Shown: positions 5,019-26,221 of the stretch, one piece after another
Layout: every line of letters starts with the position of its first letter
Numbering within the stretch: the first letter of the stretch is position 1
The notes under the pieces: model-generated
Seen by the model: the letters and a program-made list of their open reading frames with translations, nothing else
What the model was told of the DNA's origin: nothing
Databases searched by the model: none
NCBI GenBank assembly: GCA_014728015.1
Contig: WJMI01000180.1
Span: 1-35,496 of the forward strand
Reading direction: 5' to 3'
From: Chitinivibrionales bacterium
Lineage (GTDB): Bacteria > Fibrobacterota > Chitinivibrionia > Chitinivibrionales > WJMI01
DNA length: 35,496 nucleotides
Made by a program: the position numbers and the translations under genes

Positions 5019-6875
5019 ATGTCCACGCGTCCTCACTTCGAAGCCCTGGCCAAGCGGGCCAGATCATTTAAAGCATCGTCACGCCGCCTGGTCGGCCATG
5101 TGCCTACAATCGCGATCACGCCGGTGGCTGACGGCCGTACCGGCGCGTACGAGTACAATGTGGAGCGCACCTGGGGAATGGTCCAGCGGGTATACGACCT
5201 TATCGTCGGTCATGTCCGGCTCTATGACGGGCTCGCCCCGAATGTGGTTGTGGCCCCGGAAATCGTATACGGCGCGCGGACCGGTGCCCTTGCCCAGGAA
5301 TACTACGCCACGCAGGGCGTCAGCGCCAACATATTCGTGAGCCGATCGTGGGCGTACAGCGACGAGCTCATGTCGGCATGCATGGGCATTGGCAGCGCCG
5401 AGTGGCAGATCGCCGCCTACGGCCTGAACCAGACCGATCGCCCGGGCGCGGTATGGCTCAAGGCGTTCTGCGCTGCCATGGACGAGAAGCGCCGGCCGAT
5501 ATTCTGTATCTACAATCCCGACCTCGAATCAGAAGAGGGCGAACTGGCGCCGTTCGTGCGCGATCGCATTCTCCGGTTTGCCCGGTGCGCGGTCGCGGCG
5601 GCCGAGATGCGCGGCAAGAACTATCTGGGTGTAGGCGGCGTGTCCATGGGCATCATCGGCTCCGACGTGCGGCGTAACCTGCTGCACCACTACTTCGGTA
5701 TGGGCAGCGCATCGGTTGACATGTCTCTTTTGCGCGGCCGGATTGACAAGGGGTTCTACGATCACGAAGAGGCGGAGCGGGCGTTTCGGTTCATGAAACG
5801 GCGCTTCAGGTATTCGTTTGGCGAGGGCGCCCGGCCGCTGTCCGGCGACGACCTTCTGAAGACCAGCATCATCATGGCGCTTATCGTGCGCGATCTGATG
5901 GTGGGCAATCCGCGCCTGGCCAGCAAGAAGAACGGCAGAAGCCAGGGATTCACCGGCGACGTAGAGCACGCGCAGGGGTTTAACGCTATTGCCGCGGGCA
6001 CGCAGGGACAGCGGCAGTGGACCGACCTGTATCCCAATTTCGACATGTGCGAATCGATTCTCTCCAGCACGTTCGACTGGGACGGGTTCCGGCCGCCGTA
6101 CATCGTGGCAACGGAGAACGACTCGAAGAACGCGATCGGCATGCTTGCGGCATACCTTTTGACCGGCGGCATGCCCCAGCTGTTCGCCGACATCCGCACG
6201 AACTGGACCGCGGAGAGTGTCAAGAAGGCCACGGGAAAAGACGTATCAAAAATCGCGCCCAACGGGTTTATTGACAAGAGAAATTCAGGCGCCGGCGCGC
6301 TGGACTACGCGGTCGACATGTTCGCCACTACGGGAGAGAAAAGCGGGCACGCGTGCCGGCTCATGGAAAAGCTCCGTTCGAACAAGAGCGCGCAGAAAAA
6401 GCATATTACCGCGGCAATAGAGAATACCATGTACATGGCGGCATCGCTTACCTATTTCCCCGGCGACGGCCTGTCGAGTCACTACCGCACGCCGGGCGGG
6501 GTGCCAATGACCGCGTACCGCTACAATGTGGTTGACAACATGGTGACCTGCTCGGTGGTCGAGGGCGCAACGGTCGAGCTGCCCAAGGCGGTTGCCGCGC
6601 ATGTCAGCACCGTGACCGACAAGACCTGGCCGGAAAGCTACTGGGTCCCCCGGGACATGACGTCGTTCGAATACATGTCCCGTATCGGGCCCAACCACGA
6701 TGCCAACAGCTTCGGGCTCATCGGCGCCGACCTGATCACGCTCAACGCGATGCTGCGTATCCCGGTCGACATGCACAATGTGCCGAAGGACCAGATATTC
6801 CGGCCGACCATGTGGGACCGCTACGGCGGAAATGATTTCCTGGTGTGCGAAAAGCTGGGGCCCAATTACATCTGA
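5019..6875 (+). CDS. L-fucose isomerase-like aldose isomerase
   Basis: Extended similarity to FucI: GKNYLGVGGVSMGI, GFNAIAAGTQGQRQWTDLYPN, STFDWDGFRPPYIVATENDSKNAIGML, PQLFADIRTNW, GLIGADLITLNAMLRIPVDMHNVPKDQIFRPTMW. Glu (ATENDS), Asp (FADIR) and His (GPNHD) metal ligands all present. Strong SD AAGGAG. Confidence 0.88.
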   Translation: MSTRPHFEALAKRARSFKASSRRLVGHVPTIAITPVADGRTGAYEYNVERTWGMVQRVYDLIVGHVRLYDGLAPNVVVAPEIVYGARTGALAQEYYATQGVSANIFVSRSWAYSDELMSACMGIGSAEWQIAAYGLNQTDRPGAVWLKAFCAAMDEKRRPIFCIYNPDLESEEGELAPFVRDRILRFARCAVAAAEMRGKNYLGVGGVSMGIIGSDVRRNLLHHYFGMGSASVDMSLLRGRIDKGFYDHEEAERAFRFMKRRFRYSFGEGARPLSGDDLLKTSIIMALIVRDLMVGNPRLASKKNGRSQGFTGDVEHAQGFNAIAAGTQGQRQWTDLYPNFDMCESILSSTFDWDGFRPPYIVATENDSKNAIGMLAAYLLTGGMPQLFADIRTNWTAESVKKATGKDVSKIAPNGFIDKRNSGAGALDYAVDMFATTGEKSGHACRLMEKLRSNKSAQKKHITAAIENTMYMAASLTYFPGDGLSSHYRTPGGVPMTAYRYNVVDNMVTCSVVEGATVELPKAVAAHVSTVTDKTWPESYWVPRDMTSFEYMSRIGPNHDANSFGLIGADLITLNAMLRIPVDMHNVPKDQIFRPTMWDRYGGNDFLVCEKLGPNYI

Positions 6876-21279: not shown

Positions 21280-23625
21280 ATGCAGTGTTGTACTTCACGA
21301 GAGCAATACGAAACGCCTGATTGGGTTCACCGGTCCGCCCTGTCCGCTGCACGGGGTGAAAAACGCGTCCGATTCAGGCTTGTCGCAACCGGCCGCGTGC
21401 AAGGCGTGGGTTTCCGTCCCACCGTGTTTCGTCATGCCACCGAACTGGGGCTTGCGGGCTTTGTCGGGAATATGCCTGCCGGCGTGATTATCGAGGTCGA
21501 AGGGCCTGCTGAAAAGGTTGGCGCGTTTGTTAAAATGCTCGAAGATGCCCCCCCAAGGCAGGCACATATCGACAGCATTGATATTACGGAAGTGCCGGTT
21601 GCCGGCGATGTGCATTTCGCTCTGGCCGCCAGCGCGCGGTCCGGCGACATTGAGACAGGCATGCCGCCGGATCTGGCACTCTGCGAGGACTGCCTTCGGG
21701 AGCTTGGAAATCCGTGCGACCGCCGGTATGGCTATCCCTTTCTCAACTGCGTAAACTGCGGGCCGCGATTCACTATCATTCGGGCGCTTCCCTACGACCG
21801 CGAGCGGACATCCATGGCTGCGTTCGAGCAGTGCTCGGACTGCGCCGCCGAATATGCCGATCCCGCCAACCGGCGGTTCGATGCTCAGCCAAATGCCTGC
21901 GCCCGTTGCGGCCCGTCCCTTTCCCTGATCGATGCAGGCGGGATTGCGGTGGAAGGTGATCCGATCGAGACGGCTGCGCGGCTTCTGGCCGGCGGCGCAA
22001 TCGTGGCGATCAAGGGACTCGGCGGCTATCATTTGTGCTGTGATGCAATACGCGCCACCGCGATAGAGGCGCTTCGCGAGCGAAAAAACCGTCCTTCCAA
22101 GGCGGTTGCCGTGATGTTCCGCGGCATTGAGCAGGCGCGTGAGCACTGCGAAATAGGTCCGGACGAAGAGCGAGAGTTATGCTCCGCCGCGGCACCCGTT
22201 GTGGTTCTCAGGCGAAAGCAGGGGTCCGGCCTGGCCATAAATATCTCGCCGGACACGGGTGATATCGGCGCGTTTCTCGCATATACGCCGCTGCATTATC
22301 TCCTGCTCTCAAAAACCGGTCCGCTGGTTATGACAAGCGGTAATCGCGCCGACGAGCCGATTGTCAAAGATGAGACCGCCCTGCCGCGGCTGCTTGACGG
22401 CATCGCCGATTACGCGCTGACGCACAACCGCCCCGTTCTTCGCCGATGCGATGACTCGGTCATACGCGTTGTCCGGGGGAAGCGGCTGTTTATCAGGCGC
22501 TCGCGCGGTTTTGTACCGAATGCCGTCCCGCTGCCCGTGCGAGGACCATCGGTCGTGGCGGTCGGCGCCGAGCTGAAGAACACTTTCTGCATAACGCGGG
22601 GCGCGCAGGCGTTCGTGTCGCAGCATATCGGCGATCTGAGCGAGCACACGGCCTGCGACTTTTTCGAAGAGGCTGCAGACGATCTCGCCCGGCTGTTAGG
22701 GGTCAAGCCGGACATTGTTGCGCGCGACCAGCATCCCGATTACTGGAGCACGCGATATGCACAAGCGCGGGGGGCGGCCGCCGTTGTCGAAATACAACAC
22801 CACCATGCCCACATCGCGAGCTGTATGGCGGAACACGGAATCACCGACCCTGTTATCGGTGTTGCGCTGGATGGAACAGGGTTCGGGCCCGATGGTACAG
22901 TGTGGGGCGGTGAGTTTCTCGTGGCCGACCTTGGATCATACCGGCGCCGGGCGCGATTCAAGCACTACCGCCTTCCCGGCGGCGATGAAGCCGTGCGGCA
23001 TCCAGTGCGCATGGCATTGAGCTGCCTCGCGGCGGAATTCGGCGCCGAGGTTGCTCGCTTCCGCGATACCCTCCTGGGCGGCATTCCCGAAGCCGAGATG
23101 AGCGTGCTGCTGACGATGCTTGACAAAGGTGTTCGTTCTCCCTTGACATCGAGCTGCGGCCGCCTTTTTGATGCTGTTTCCGCTTTGCTTGGCTTGTGCT
23201 CGACGATTACCTACGAGGGCCAGGCCGCGATACGGCTTCAAAGCGCTGCGGATCCGGCGATCGCCGGCAGATACGAATTTGAGATTGCGGGCGGCGATGG
23301 AATCGATGTGCTGACGTTTTCGCCAGCACTGCGCGCTCTTGTCAAAGACATCGAATCGAACCGCGGCGCTGCGGAGATTGCTTCGAAGTTCCACAACACG
23401 ATTGCCGAAGCGGTGTGTGCCGTGTGCGACCGCATCCGCGGGCGTGAGGGTATCAACGTGGTTGCGCTGTCGGGCGGCGTGTTTCAGAACGATCTGCTTC
23501 TGGCCCGCGTAACCGACGGCCTTGCGAAGCGCGGATTTAATGCGTATTCGCATCATGGGGTCCCGCCCAATGATGCGGGAATCTCACTGGGCCAGGCGGT
23601 CGTGGCGCTTGCAAAGAATGGATGA
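21280..23625 (+). CDS. hypF: Carbamoyltransferase HypF
   Basis: Acylphosphatase motif ATGRVQGVGFRP, double zinc finger CEDCLREL...CVNCGPRFTIIRALPYDRERTSM...CSDCAAEYADP...CARCGP, YrdC-like NRPSKAVAVM, Kae1-like HHHAHIASCMAEHG. Start codon uncertain. Confidence 0.96.
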   Translation: MQCCTSREQYETPDWVHRSALSAARGEKRVRFRLVATGRVQGVGFRPTVFRHATELGLAGFVGNMPAGVIIEVEGPAEKVGAFVKMLEDAPPRQAHIDSIDITEVPVAGDVHFALAASARSGDIETGMPPDLALCEDCLRELGNPCDRRYGYPFLNCVNCGPRFTIIRALPYDRERTSMAAFEQCSDCAAEYADPANRRFDAQPNACARCGPSLSLIDAGGIAVEGDPIETAARLLAGGAIVAIKGLGGYHLCCDAIRATAIEALRERKNRPSKAVAVMFRGIEQAREHCEIGPDEERELCSAAAPVVVLRRKQGSGLAINISPDTGDIGAFLAYTPLHYLLLSKTGPLVMTSGNRADEPIVKDETALPRLLDGIADYALTHNRPVLRRCDDSVIRVVRGKRLFIRRSRGFVPNAVPLPVRGPSVVAVGAELKNTFCITRGAQAFVSQHIGDLSEHTACDFFEEAADDLARLLGVKPDIVARDQHPDYWSTRYAQARGAAAVVEIQHHHAHIASCMAEHGITDPVIGVALDGTGFGPDGTVWGGEFLVADLGSYRRRARFKHYRLPGGDEAVRHPVRMALSCLAAEFGAEVARFRDTLLGGIPEAEMSVLLTMLDKGVRSPLTSSCGRLFDAVSALLGLCSTITYEGQAAIRLQSAADPAIAGRYEFEIAGGDGIDVLTFSPALRALVKDIESNRGAAEIASKFHNTIAEAVCAVCDRIRGREGINVVALSGGVFQNDLLLARVTDGLAKRGFNAYSHHGVPPNDAGISLGQAVVALAKNG

Positions 23626-23715
23626 ATGGAGTAGTGGAGTGCTGAAGGCGTAGGTTTCCGATTGCAGCTGTTTTTTCGTACGGCACCCTACTACTCCTCT
23701 ACGCGATCACTCCCA
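23614..23715. repeat. Inverted-repeat element, copy 1 (hypF 3' end / hypC upstream)
   Basis: Left arm of 8-nt units AATGGATG/AATGGAGT/AGTGGAGT; right arm ACTACTCC...ACTCCC in inverted orientation. GGAGTAGT (23628-23635) pairs with ACTACTCC (23690-23697). Confidence 0.6.
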
Positions 23716-23736
23716 AACAAGAGGGACGGTTATTTC

Positions 23737-23955
23737 ATGTGTCTTGCGGTACCGGCGAAGATAGTCGCAATAGAGGCTGACACCGCCACGATTGATGTAG
23801 ACGGCGTGCGCCGCCCGGTGAACGTTTCCCTTGTACGCGATCCGAAAGTCGGAGAATACGTGATCGTGCATGCGGGTTTCGCCATTCAAAAATGGTCCGA
23901 GAGCGATGTGGACGAGTGGAGGAAGATCCAGGAAGAGATGCATTCGTTGGAATAG
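23737..23955 (+). CDS. hypC: Hydrogenase assembly chaperone HypC/HupF
   Basis: MCLAVPAKIVAIEADTATIDVDGVRRPVNVSLVRDPKVGEYVIVHAGFAIQKW; canonical N-terminal MC start. Confidence 0.96.
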   Translation: MCLAVPAKIVAIEADTATIDVDGVRRPVNVSLVRDPKVGEYVIVHAGFAIQKWSESDVDEWRKIQEEMHSLE

Positions 23956-24061
23956 CCGGGAAGTAAGCGCCGGCGAATTCTGTTTCTGCCATGCAGGGAG
24001 TGGATGGCGGGCAGGCCTCTCAAAGAGACCAACAAGAAAATGACGCAGGCAAAGTAGCTGT

Positions 24062-25144
24062 ATGGAAATGCGAAAACGAGTAGGGGCAATCCGCGCGCTT
24101 GGCCGCAAGATCGGCCGTCCTGTCAAACTGATGGAAGTTTGCGGGACGCACACCATGGCCGCATTTCGCAGCGGCCTGCGCCACCTGCTGCCGGAGAACG
24201 TATCGCTTCTGTCCGGCCCGGGGTGCCCGGTCTGCGTGACCCCCAACGAGTACCTCGATCGCGCAATCGCTATCGCAGAGCAATCCGATACCATGGTCGC
24301 GACGTTTGGCGACATGGTGCGCGTGCCGGGAACAAGAGAATCGCTTGAGACGGTACGTGCCGGCGGCGCGCGCATACACGTGGTCTATTCGCCTGCCGAA
24401 GCGGTCGTGTTTGCCCGGGAAAACCCGGGAACGCGAGTCGTGTTCCTCGGCGTCGGTTTCGAAACAACCACCCCGGCCATTGCCTGGACAATCAAAGAGG
24501 CCGCCGGGAACCAGGTTGACAACTACTCGGTGCTGTGCGGCCACAAGACAATCCCGCGGGCCATGTCAGCGCTGTGCGCGGCCGGAGAGCTCGACCTCGA
24601 CGGGTTCATATGTCCCGGGCATGTAAGTATAGTGATTGGCGCGGATGCCTACGGGCCCGTGTGCCGCGAGTGCGGCCTGCCCTGCGTGGTGACCGGATTC
24701 GAAGCGGCCGACATGCTGCAGGGCGTGGAGATGCTCTTGAGACAGATAGCGGAAAACCGCTCAGAGGTGGAAAACCAGTACACGAGATGTGTACGGGACA
24801 AAGGGAACACCACGGCGCTCGGACTCATCGAAGAGGTGTTTGAGCAGTGCGACGCATCCTGGCGCGGGATCGGTGTGATACCGGGGAGCGGGCTCAAGAT
24901 CCGCGGCTGCTTTGCCGCACATGATGCCGATCGCGTATTTGAGAAAATCTCCGTGCCCCCGGGCCGCGAGCGTTCGGGGTGCATATGCGGGCAGGTCATG
25001 CGCGGCATCAAAACACCACACGATTGCGCGCTGTTCGGAAAAGCGTGTACGCCGTCACAACCGGTTGGCGCGTGCATGGTTTCCAGCGAAGGCACCTGCG
25101 CGGCCTATTATAAGTACGCCCGGAAGAATGGAGACATGGAGTAA
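24062..25144 (+). CDS. hypD: Hydrogenase formation protein HypD
   Basis: KLMEVCGTHTMAAFRSGLRHLLPENVSLLSGPGCPVCVTP, FLGVGFETTTPAIAWTI, FICPGHVSIVIGADAY, CTPSQPVGACMVSSEGTCAAYYKY. Confidence 0.97.
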   Translation: MEMRKRVGAIRALGRKIGRPVKLMEVCGTHTMAAFRSGLRHLLPENVSLLSGPGCPVCVTPNEYLDRAIAIAEQSDTMVATFGDMVRVPGTRESLETVRAGGARIHVVYSPAEAVVFARENPGTRVVFLGVGFETTTPAIAWTIKEAAGNQVDNYSVLCGHKTIPRAMSALCAAGELDLDGFICPGHVSIVIGADAYGPVCRECGLPCVVTGFEAADMLQGVEMLLRQIAENRSEVENQYTRCVRDKGNTTALGLIEEVFEQCDASWRGIGVIPGSGLKIRGCFAAHDADRVFEKISVPPGRERSGCICGQVMRGIKTPHDCALFGKACTPSQPVGACMVSSEGTCAAYYKYARKNGDME

Positions 25145-25199
25145 CAGAATGCTGTATTTGCGTGTACGCGCTCCTCGAAGTGCAGTACTCCAATGCTCC
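25124..25199. repeat. Inverted-repeat element, copy 2 (hypD 3' end / hypE upstream)
   Basis: Left arm AATGGAGA/CATGGAGT/AACAGAAT and right arm AGTACTCCAATGCTCC (reverse complement GGAGCATTGGAGTACT). Ungapped identity of 24/31 with copy 1 over 25124-25154 versus 23614-23644. Confidence 0.6.
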
Positions 25200-25210
25200 C
25201 TCAACAGCCT

Positions 25211-26221
25211 ATGACAAACAATCTTATTACTCTCGCGCACGGGGGCGGCGGCGAGCGAACGCACGCGCTGATACGTGATGTAGTCCTGCGCTATCTGGGA
25301 AATCCCACTCTAAATTGTCTGGATGACGGGGCCTGCATTGAGATTGCCGAGTCGCGCCTGGTGATGACGACCGATTCGTATGTGGTTGATCCAATCTTCT
25401 TTCCCGGCGGCGATATAGGAAAACTCTCGGTGTGCGGCACGATCAACGACCTGGTCATGCAGGGCGGCGATCCGCGTTTCATGAGTCTCGGTCTGATCCT
25501 CGAAGAGGGATTGCGGGTGGCGGATCTCGAACAGGTGATCGCATCGGCGGCCGGCGTACTCCAAAGCACCGGCGTGGCCGTGGTTACGGGCGATACCAAG
25601 GTTGTCGAGCGGGGAAAGGGAGGCGGGGTATTCATCAACACGACCGGCATTGGCGCGCGCCGTGAGGGCATCGATGTGCACGTCGGCAATGCGCGCCCCG
25701 GCGACAGCGTGATTGTGTCGGGTACTATCGGCGACCATGGCATCGCCGTGATGAGCGCTCGCGAAGGATTGCGGTTTGAGTCGGATATTGTCAGTGACGT
25801 TGCGCCGCTATGGGGTATGATAAAGCCGCTGTGGGATGAAGGCATCCCCCTCCGATGCCTCCGCGATCCCACCCGCGGCGGTGTTGCCGCCGCGCTGTGC
25901 GATATCGCCCGGGCATCGGGAGCGGGCATTCGGGTCCGCGAGAAGACCCTTCCCGTGCGGCGGCAGGTACGGGGCGCGTGCGATCTTCTGGGGCTTGATC
26001 CGCTCGAAGTGGCCAACGAGGGCAAGGCGATAGTTGTCTGTGATCCCTCGAGTACCGAGCGCGCGCTTGCGATCCTCAAGCAGAGTGATTCTGGCCGCGA
26101 TGCGACCGAAGTCGGCACGGTGGTCGAGAGCCATCCGGGCACCGTGGTCATGGAGACACGCATTGGCGCCGAGCGTATCGTGGATGTCCCCTCCGGCGAA
26201 CAGTTGCCCCGAATCTGCTAG
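25211..26221 (+). CDS. hypE: Hydrogenase expression/formation protein HypE
   Basis: LAHGGGGERTHALIRDV, VMTTDSYVVDPIFFPGGDIGKLSVCGTINDLVMQGGDP, CLRDPTRGGVAAALCDIA, LDPLEVANEGKAIVV, C-terminal PRIC. Internal ATG at 25211 preferred because 25193 lies inside the repeat element. Confidence 0.95.
   Translation: MTNNLITLAHGGGGERTHALIRDVVLRYLGNPTLNCLDDGACIEIAESRLVMTTDSYVVDPIFFPGGDIGKLSVCGTINDLVMQGGDPRFMSLGLILEEGLRVADLEQVIASAAGVLQSTGVAVVTGDTKVVERGKGGGVFINTTGIGARREGIDVHVGNARPGDSVIVSGTIGDHGIAVMSAREGLRFESDIVSDVAPLWGMIKPLWDEGIPLRCLRDPTRGGVAAALCDIARASGAGIRVREKTLPVRRQVRGACDLLGLDPLEVANEGKAIVVCDPSSTERALAILKQSDSGRDATEVGTVVESHPGTVVMETRIGAERIVDVPSGEQLPRIC

Follow-up and report, generated by a model that had tools for sequence, protein, structure and literature searches.

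Many bacteria contain short palindromic repeats; as a rule, a given repeat family is restricted to a single genus or family and associated with a transposase of known type. Here we describe a family of hairpin-forming elements with arms built of 8-nt units (octamer elements), two copies of which lie in the hyp gene cluster of a 35,496-nt stretch of DNA from a Chitinivibrionales bacterium (Fibrobacterota; assembly GCA_014728015.1, contig WJMI01000180.1, positions 1–35,496, forward strand), referred to as the window. Repetitive extragenic palindromic sequences (REPs) are stem-loops of 20–40 bp with an unpaired GTAG or CGTC tag, and their GTAG families are linked to RAYT genes (PMC3733652). Like REPs, the octamer elements are short intergenic palindromes that occur in tens of copies, are patchily distributed over phyla, often lie at gene ends, are partly intragenic and fold strongly. 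Unlike REPs, they have arms of 8-nt periodicity, span 60–130 bp, carry no fixed tag, and no linked Y1 gene was found.

The bacterial repeats resembling miniature inverted-repeat transposable elements (MITEs), i.e., Correia/NEMIS, ERIC, RUP, YPAL and RPE, mostly show target duplication, have TA termini and are confined to a genus or family (PMC2229807). The octamer elements share with them a length of about 70–200 bp, terminal inverted repeats, a long stem-loop RNA, a mainly intergenic position, the occasional in-frame fusion to genes, and the lack of a transposase of their own. They differ in showing no duplication signal and no fixed terminal dinucleotide, and in using octamer arrays as arms, with one common hexamer across phyla. 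In the TIRtron and TIRYT families, RAYT-like genes are flanked by long inverted repeats (PMC3733652). The likeness here lies in inverted repeats that occur as free families, too, whereas no Y1 transposase gene was found between octamer arms. Three octamer elements resemble the intervening sequences that hold an S23/IVP gene of the four-helix-bundle type (e.g., Coxiella, PMC4990558) in having a PF05635 gene between inverted arms; yet those sequences reside in 23S rRNA, while the octamer elements are intergenic and geneless in their great majority. In kind, the family is nearest to REPs and bacterial MITE-like repeats, although the defining features tested (tag, linked Y1 gene, target duplication) were not found in it. 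With interspersed intergenic palindromes in general it shares copies dispersed beyond chance, inverted arms forming a stem-loop, and orthologous sites that are occupied in some genomes and empty in others.

The octamer-hairpin family

The genome from which the window derives (428 contigs) was searched with the pattern AATGGAGTANTGGAGT, allowing two mismatches, with the reversed pattern as a control. This gave 29 matches vs. 1 for the control. A sequence-only reading of the window, in which the two copies had been noticed, had proposed a search for further copies genome-wide, and about 20 separate sites were found. Most of them lie at gene ends, where several supply the stop codon, and three follow the 3′ end of a tRNA gene at a distance of ~26–52 nt. 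Among the relatives, most of which are metagenome assemblies, three-unit arrays were detected in 7 of 151 genomes of the window's phylum sample (at most 18 matches per genome), with 1 stray match for the reversed control. At least 118 stretches of GTDB contigs carry the full-element pattern, defined as three left units, a loop and two right units; the matches listed come from Verrucomicrobiota, Thermodesulfobacteriota and other 'Deltaproteobacteria', Bacteroidota, Calditrichota, Fidelibacterota, Lentisphaerota, KSB1 and others. The family is present in bacteria of at least eight phyla. Exact counts in 40 whole genomes reached 135 strand-hits (overlapping registers counted), while the reversed control gave 0 in all of them. 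These scans with exact patterns undercount weathered copies such as those of the window. In the phylum of one Caldithrix assembly, 3 of 40 sampled genomes have the element, and the distribution of the family is wide yet patchy. Phage records gave no pattern match and plasmid records one partial match. Three IMG/VR contigs classed as viral (L336, L337, L338) contain canonical elements, one of them in two copies 500 nt apart. A literature search, outside which subscription papers mostly fell, found neither these octamers in a bacterial genome nor the peptide forms of the array, and the family is apparently undescribed.

The canonical form of the element is (RNTGGAGT)n-RNTGG-short loop-CCANY-(ACTCCANY)n; a four-unit array is written as (TGGAGTNN)4. 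Alignment of 121 canonical elements showed that the hexamers are fixed, while the 2-nt spacers and the loops vary. The arms comprise 2–5 octamers, rarely up to about 12, and the innermost hexamers are 5–38 nt apart (median 24), the upper bound being imposed by the search pattern. Of 495 units, 448 have a purine as the first spacer base. Arrays occur in 852 kb as 135 convergent left-right pairs vs. 9 single arrays, and canonical elements fold strongly as RNA (median z −7.6, n = 112) into hairpins composed of 6-bp helices split by the variable 2-nt spacers. No covariation of opposed spacers was detected, and complementarity of the innermost pair is rarer than in shuffled pairings; it is therefore the hexamer, and not the entire stem, that is retained. 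Within short arms, the spacers of neighbouring units are no more alike than expected by chance. None of the 121 elements shows a fixed terminal unpaired GTAG/CGTC tag, the arms being symmetric octamer arrays. A T-run does not follow the hairpin (TTTT within 12 nt in 7.1% vs. 5.9% background), which rules out an ordinary intrinsic terminator.

Two departures from this form were also observed. In G008 (L055, L050, L077), several copies have the inner piece CCTAAAGGATTAAAA between the arm hexamers and form a subfamily of that genome. In G131 (L059, L064, L069), three left arms have ~30–40 nt of flank in common on each side (CAGAATCTGTGGGTAGAATGG...) and no right arm nearby; they possibly represent a larger repeat carrying half an element.

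The position of the elements relative to genes was determined with a crude open reading frame caller. Element midpoints are intergenic in 61% of cases vs. 11.5% of random positions, and the median distance of arm starts is 21 nt to the 3′ end of a gene and 51 nt to a 5′ end. The gaps between divergent genes hold fewer of the elements than expected (5/60 vs. 108/616). In two 3′ untranslated regions (UTRs), the stop codon is followed by the element and then by an intrinsic terminator. The T-R-N junction between units forms a stop codon for 209 of 495 spacers (AA, AG, GA; 42%), and since the 8-nt period is not divisible by 3, consecutive junctions cover all three frames. There is no excess of stop-forming spacers beyond the base frequencies of both positions, and we do not claim selection for stops. 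Owing to the octamer period and the stop-forming spacers, a gene whose stop codon is hit by an element acquires a short tail, such as NG* in HypF and NGDME* in HypD. A preference for gene ends, for which a test had been suggested from the window, is seen both within its own genome and across the family; of the claim that the element inserts at gene 3′ ends, the bias in location stands, while a choice of target does not follow from it.

Two copies in the hyp cluster

The cluster of hypF, hypC, hypD and hypE is genuine. Copy 1 (23617–23714) occupies the hypF/hypC junction and copy 2 (25127–25202) the hypD/hypE junction, and the features of the locus are as follows.

21280–23625, + strand: hypF, upstream neighbour of copy 1; HypF Pfam domains
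23617–23644, + strand: copy 1 left arm, octamers AATGGATG AATGGAGT AGTGGAGT, then GCTG
23645–23685, no strand: copy 1 loop/spacer, with no conservation between copies
23686–23714, − strand: copy 1 right arm, CCCTACTACTCC...ATCACTCCC, inverted units; pairs with 23628–23642
23737–23955, + strand: hypC, downstream of copy 1; Pfam PF01455
24062–25144, + strand: hypD, upstream neighbour of copy 2; Pfam PF01924
25127–25142, + strand: copy 2 left arm, octamers AATGGAGA CATGGAGT
25143–25178, no strand: copy 2 loop/spacer
25179–25202, − strand: copy 2 right arm, GTGCAGT ACTCCAAT GCTCCCTC, inverted units; includes ATG 25193
25211–26221, + strand: hypE, start as suggested by homologues; Pfam AIRS/AIRS_C

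The two related inverted repeats match their earlier description, including the identity of the left arms at 24 of 31 positions (ungapped 23614–23644 vs. 25124–25154; 77%). Inverted ACTCC units occupy the right side of both (23690–23713 in copy 1, 25187–25199 in copy 2). Searching the window for the two-octamer pattern with up to 3 mismatches gave 5 matches, all within copies 1 and 2, while dinucleotide shuffles gave a mean of 0.27. On the + strand, the RNA-fold z was −1.44 for copy 1 and −2.79 for copy 2, well short of the median of their canonical relatives. Both copies are weathered family members with imperfect hairpins, and taken alone they would not be convincing as elements. Rfam covariance models gave no match at E ≤ 1 over 23300–25500, and a four-helix-bundle gene is absent from between the arms of both copies.

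Comparison with other hyp clusters showed that the hypF–hypC gap is 111 nt in the window vs. about −10 to +23 nt in most relatives. The hypD–hypE gap, with hypE taken to start at 25211, is 66 nt, while in relatives it is mostly −11 to +19 nt and in four of them 78–204 nt. In syntenic relatives with the gene order hypF-hypC-hypD-hypE, both junctions are without the element, and no HypF or HypD homologue has a tail with the same codons. With these results and the many further copies, neither of the two outcomes named beforehand as refuting the sequence-only reading was obtained.

The predicted protein ends, ...ALAKNG* for HypF and ...YARKNGDME* for HypD, were confirmed. The left arm of copy 1 is the source of the final hypF codons and of the stop codon TGA (23623–23625), which do not occur in the HypF tails of relatives; the left arm of copy 2 is the source of NGDME and, together with the next two bases, of the hypD stop codon TAA (25142–25144). 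Of the KNG that had been ascribed to the element in each protein, the NG part is indeed element-derived, but the K is probably native, because HypD homologues end in ...YAKRS* or ...YAKKRGA* and the element proper begins with AATGGA. In a similar manner, the ATG at 25193 read as the hypE start does lie in the right arm of copy 2, but it is probably not the true start, because most hypE homologues align from residue 7, corresponding to ATG 25211 (MTNNLITLAHGGGG). A clear ribosome-binding site is seen before neither of the two codons, and hypD and hypE overlap by 4 nt in L034. The element between hypD and hypE may have split a translational coupling. The octamer elements account for annotated proteins with short, unusual C-terminal tails and for start codons that are open to doubt, as exemplified by HypF, HypD and hypE.

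Probable spread of the elements and competing explanations

Copies 1 and 2 belong to a family of small non-coding intergenic palindromic elements, which is probably a spreading one, REP- or MITE-like and non-autonomous. Homology between copies ceases at the element edges. Loops are more alike within genomes than between them (similarity 0.486 vs. 0.360 ± 0.015 with permuted labels), and suggest spread inside genomes. At an orthologous locus of Verrucomicrobiaceae with flanks 76–79% identical, the element is present in 3 genomes and absent in 5, one of the empty genomes having about ten bases at a direct junction. At least two changes are needed on the tree of this locus, with the occupied G197 being sister to the empty G206. 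Empty sites in relatives, which had been suggested as a check, are thus found both here and at the hyp junctions, and the view of a small mobile or spreading intergenic palindromic repeat is supported by these site comparisons, by the sharp edges and by the likeness of loops. From them we infer a transposition-like movement of the elements.

Several observations weigh against this interpretation. Base composition contributes to the similarity of loops within genomes. Presence and absence represent gain or loss at fixed sites, and neither separate the two nor demonstrate insertion itself. No signal of target-site duplication was detected (longest common flank string 3.79 vs. 3.73 shuffled), and no linked transposase was found, with arms at 0 of 70 Y1_Tnp loci. 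Loops and spacers are very different between copies; the young, identical copies by which active spread is usually recognised were not observed. The intergenic statistics also depend on the crude caller mentioned above.

Two convergent octamer arms around a short loop give the hairpin. If the elements are mobile, the TGGAGT arrays would probably be read by a protein supplied in trans. Spread would take place inside genomes and, rarely, from one lineage to another, in the manner of non-autonomous REP- or MITE-like elements. The elements would persist chiefly directly behind stop codons or the 3′ ends of tRNAs, places at which an added hairpin may do little harm, and their retention would be near-neutral. 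An element landing on a gene end would contribute some codons together with a stop of its own, as in HypF and HypD. It is doubtful, in our estimate, that the family amounts to an undescribed class of mobile DNA, with a phased octamer-array code (six fixed bases plus a free purine-first dinucleotide) shared by many phyla, moved by a protein, possibly tied to the four-helix-bundle gene, and ending translation in any frame.

Alternatively, the elements could be kept by selection as hairpins of 3′ UTRs or operons, acting as stabilisers of mRNA 3′ ends, processing sites or attenuators, whatever their origin. The strong RNA folding, the location just behind stop codons and the two 3′ UTRs with an intrinsic terminator after the element agree with such a role, as does the finding that another hairpin, GGGGATCA...TGATCCCC, takes the place of the element in some orthologues. 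In addition, in one orthologous pair with the element in both genomes (flanks 74% identical), most hexamers are retained while the spacers and loop have diverged. Yet compensatory pairing is not seen between opposed spacer dinucleotides (below chance for the innermost pair), the hairpins are not followed by a T-run as in ordinary intrinsic terminators, several orthologues have no hairpin at that place (G203; hyp junctions), and the window copies are weathered. We regard selection for a functional hairpin as unlikely to be the main explanation.

The short elements might also be internal deletions of a larger element whose PF05635 (23S rRNA IVP/Avd-like) cargo provides or aids mobilisation. Four-helix-bundle genes or their remnants were found between octamer arms at three places.

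L031 1357–1705 (own genome, G000:C197 about 6020–6370): broken PF05635-like gene between octamer arms, ~340 bp, at the 3′ end of another gene
L266 1289–1910 and L276 560–1112 (G187, Verrucomicrobiaceae metagenome-assembled genome H5_VER2): near-identical intact four-helix-bundle genes with paralogous flanks

The latter two have (TGGAGGAG)n to the left and CTCCACTCCTCCACTCC to the right. PF05635 is present in 46 of 46 element-bearing genomes scanned, but also in 13 of 15 genomes with no or few canonical elements. The G187 copies may stem from one event, given their paralogous flanks, and their unit TGGAGGAG differs. With three clear cases vs. more than 100 other PF05635 loci without arms on both sides, the gene was rejected as a general cargo, and an origin of the family by deletion from such an element is very unlikely.

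Highly improbable, too, are REPs or terminal inverted repeats moved by a Y1 transposase of the IS200/IS605 type (RAYT or TIRYT). Y1_Tnp genes occur in 27 of 28 element-bearing genomes, and RAYT-like genes bordered by other inverted repeats, which make up repeat families, have been described (PMC3733652). Against this, such genes are also found in 5 of 14 control genomes, a terminal GTAG/CGTC tag is not a fixed feature of the units, and the lack of flanking octamer arms at the 70 inspected loci led us to reject the link. The comparison with autonomous transposons covered the Y1_Tnp and PF05635 loci. Many element-bearing genomes (G000, G006, G151, G153, G157, G168, G169 and others) encode several long (about 320–350 aa) Y1_Tnp proteins, unlinked to arms.

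Chance or slippage of a simple 8-nt sequence is practically untenable: although long perfect tandems do occur in a few arms (e.g., L133, L183), the reading is refuted already by the near-zero reversed-pattern controls and by arms that are almost always inversely paired, which slippage cannot produce, and it is further opposed by the neighbouring spacers of short arms, whose likeness does not exceed chance, and by the recurrence of the same hexamer across many phyla.

The spreading-element interpretation makes the octamer arrays, with the same hexamer TGGAGT at an 8-nt period in genomes of many phyla, for the most part uncultured, a clear search target for a putative mobilising protein, and the natural pairs of occupied and empty sites can be used to test the effect of an added hairpin on operon expression. 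At the Verrucomicrobiaceae site, some orthologues (L370, L371, L372, L378, L388) have instead the different dispersed hairpin of the form GGGGATCA-n-TGATCCCC, which may constitute a second repeat family of Verrucomicrobiaceae.

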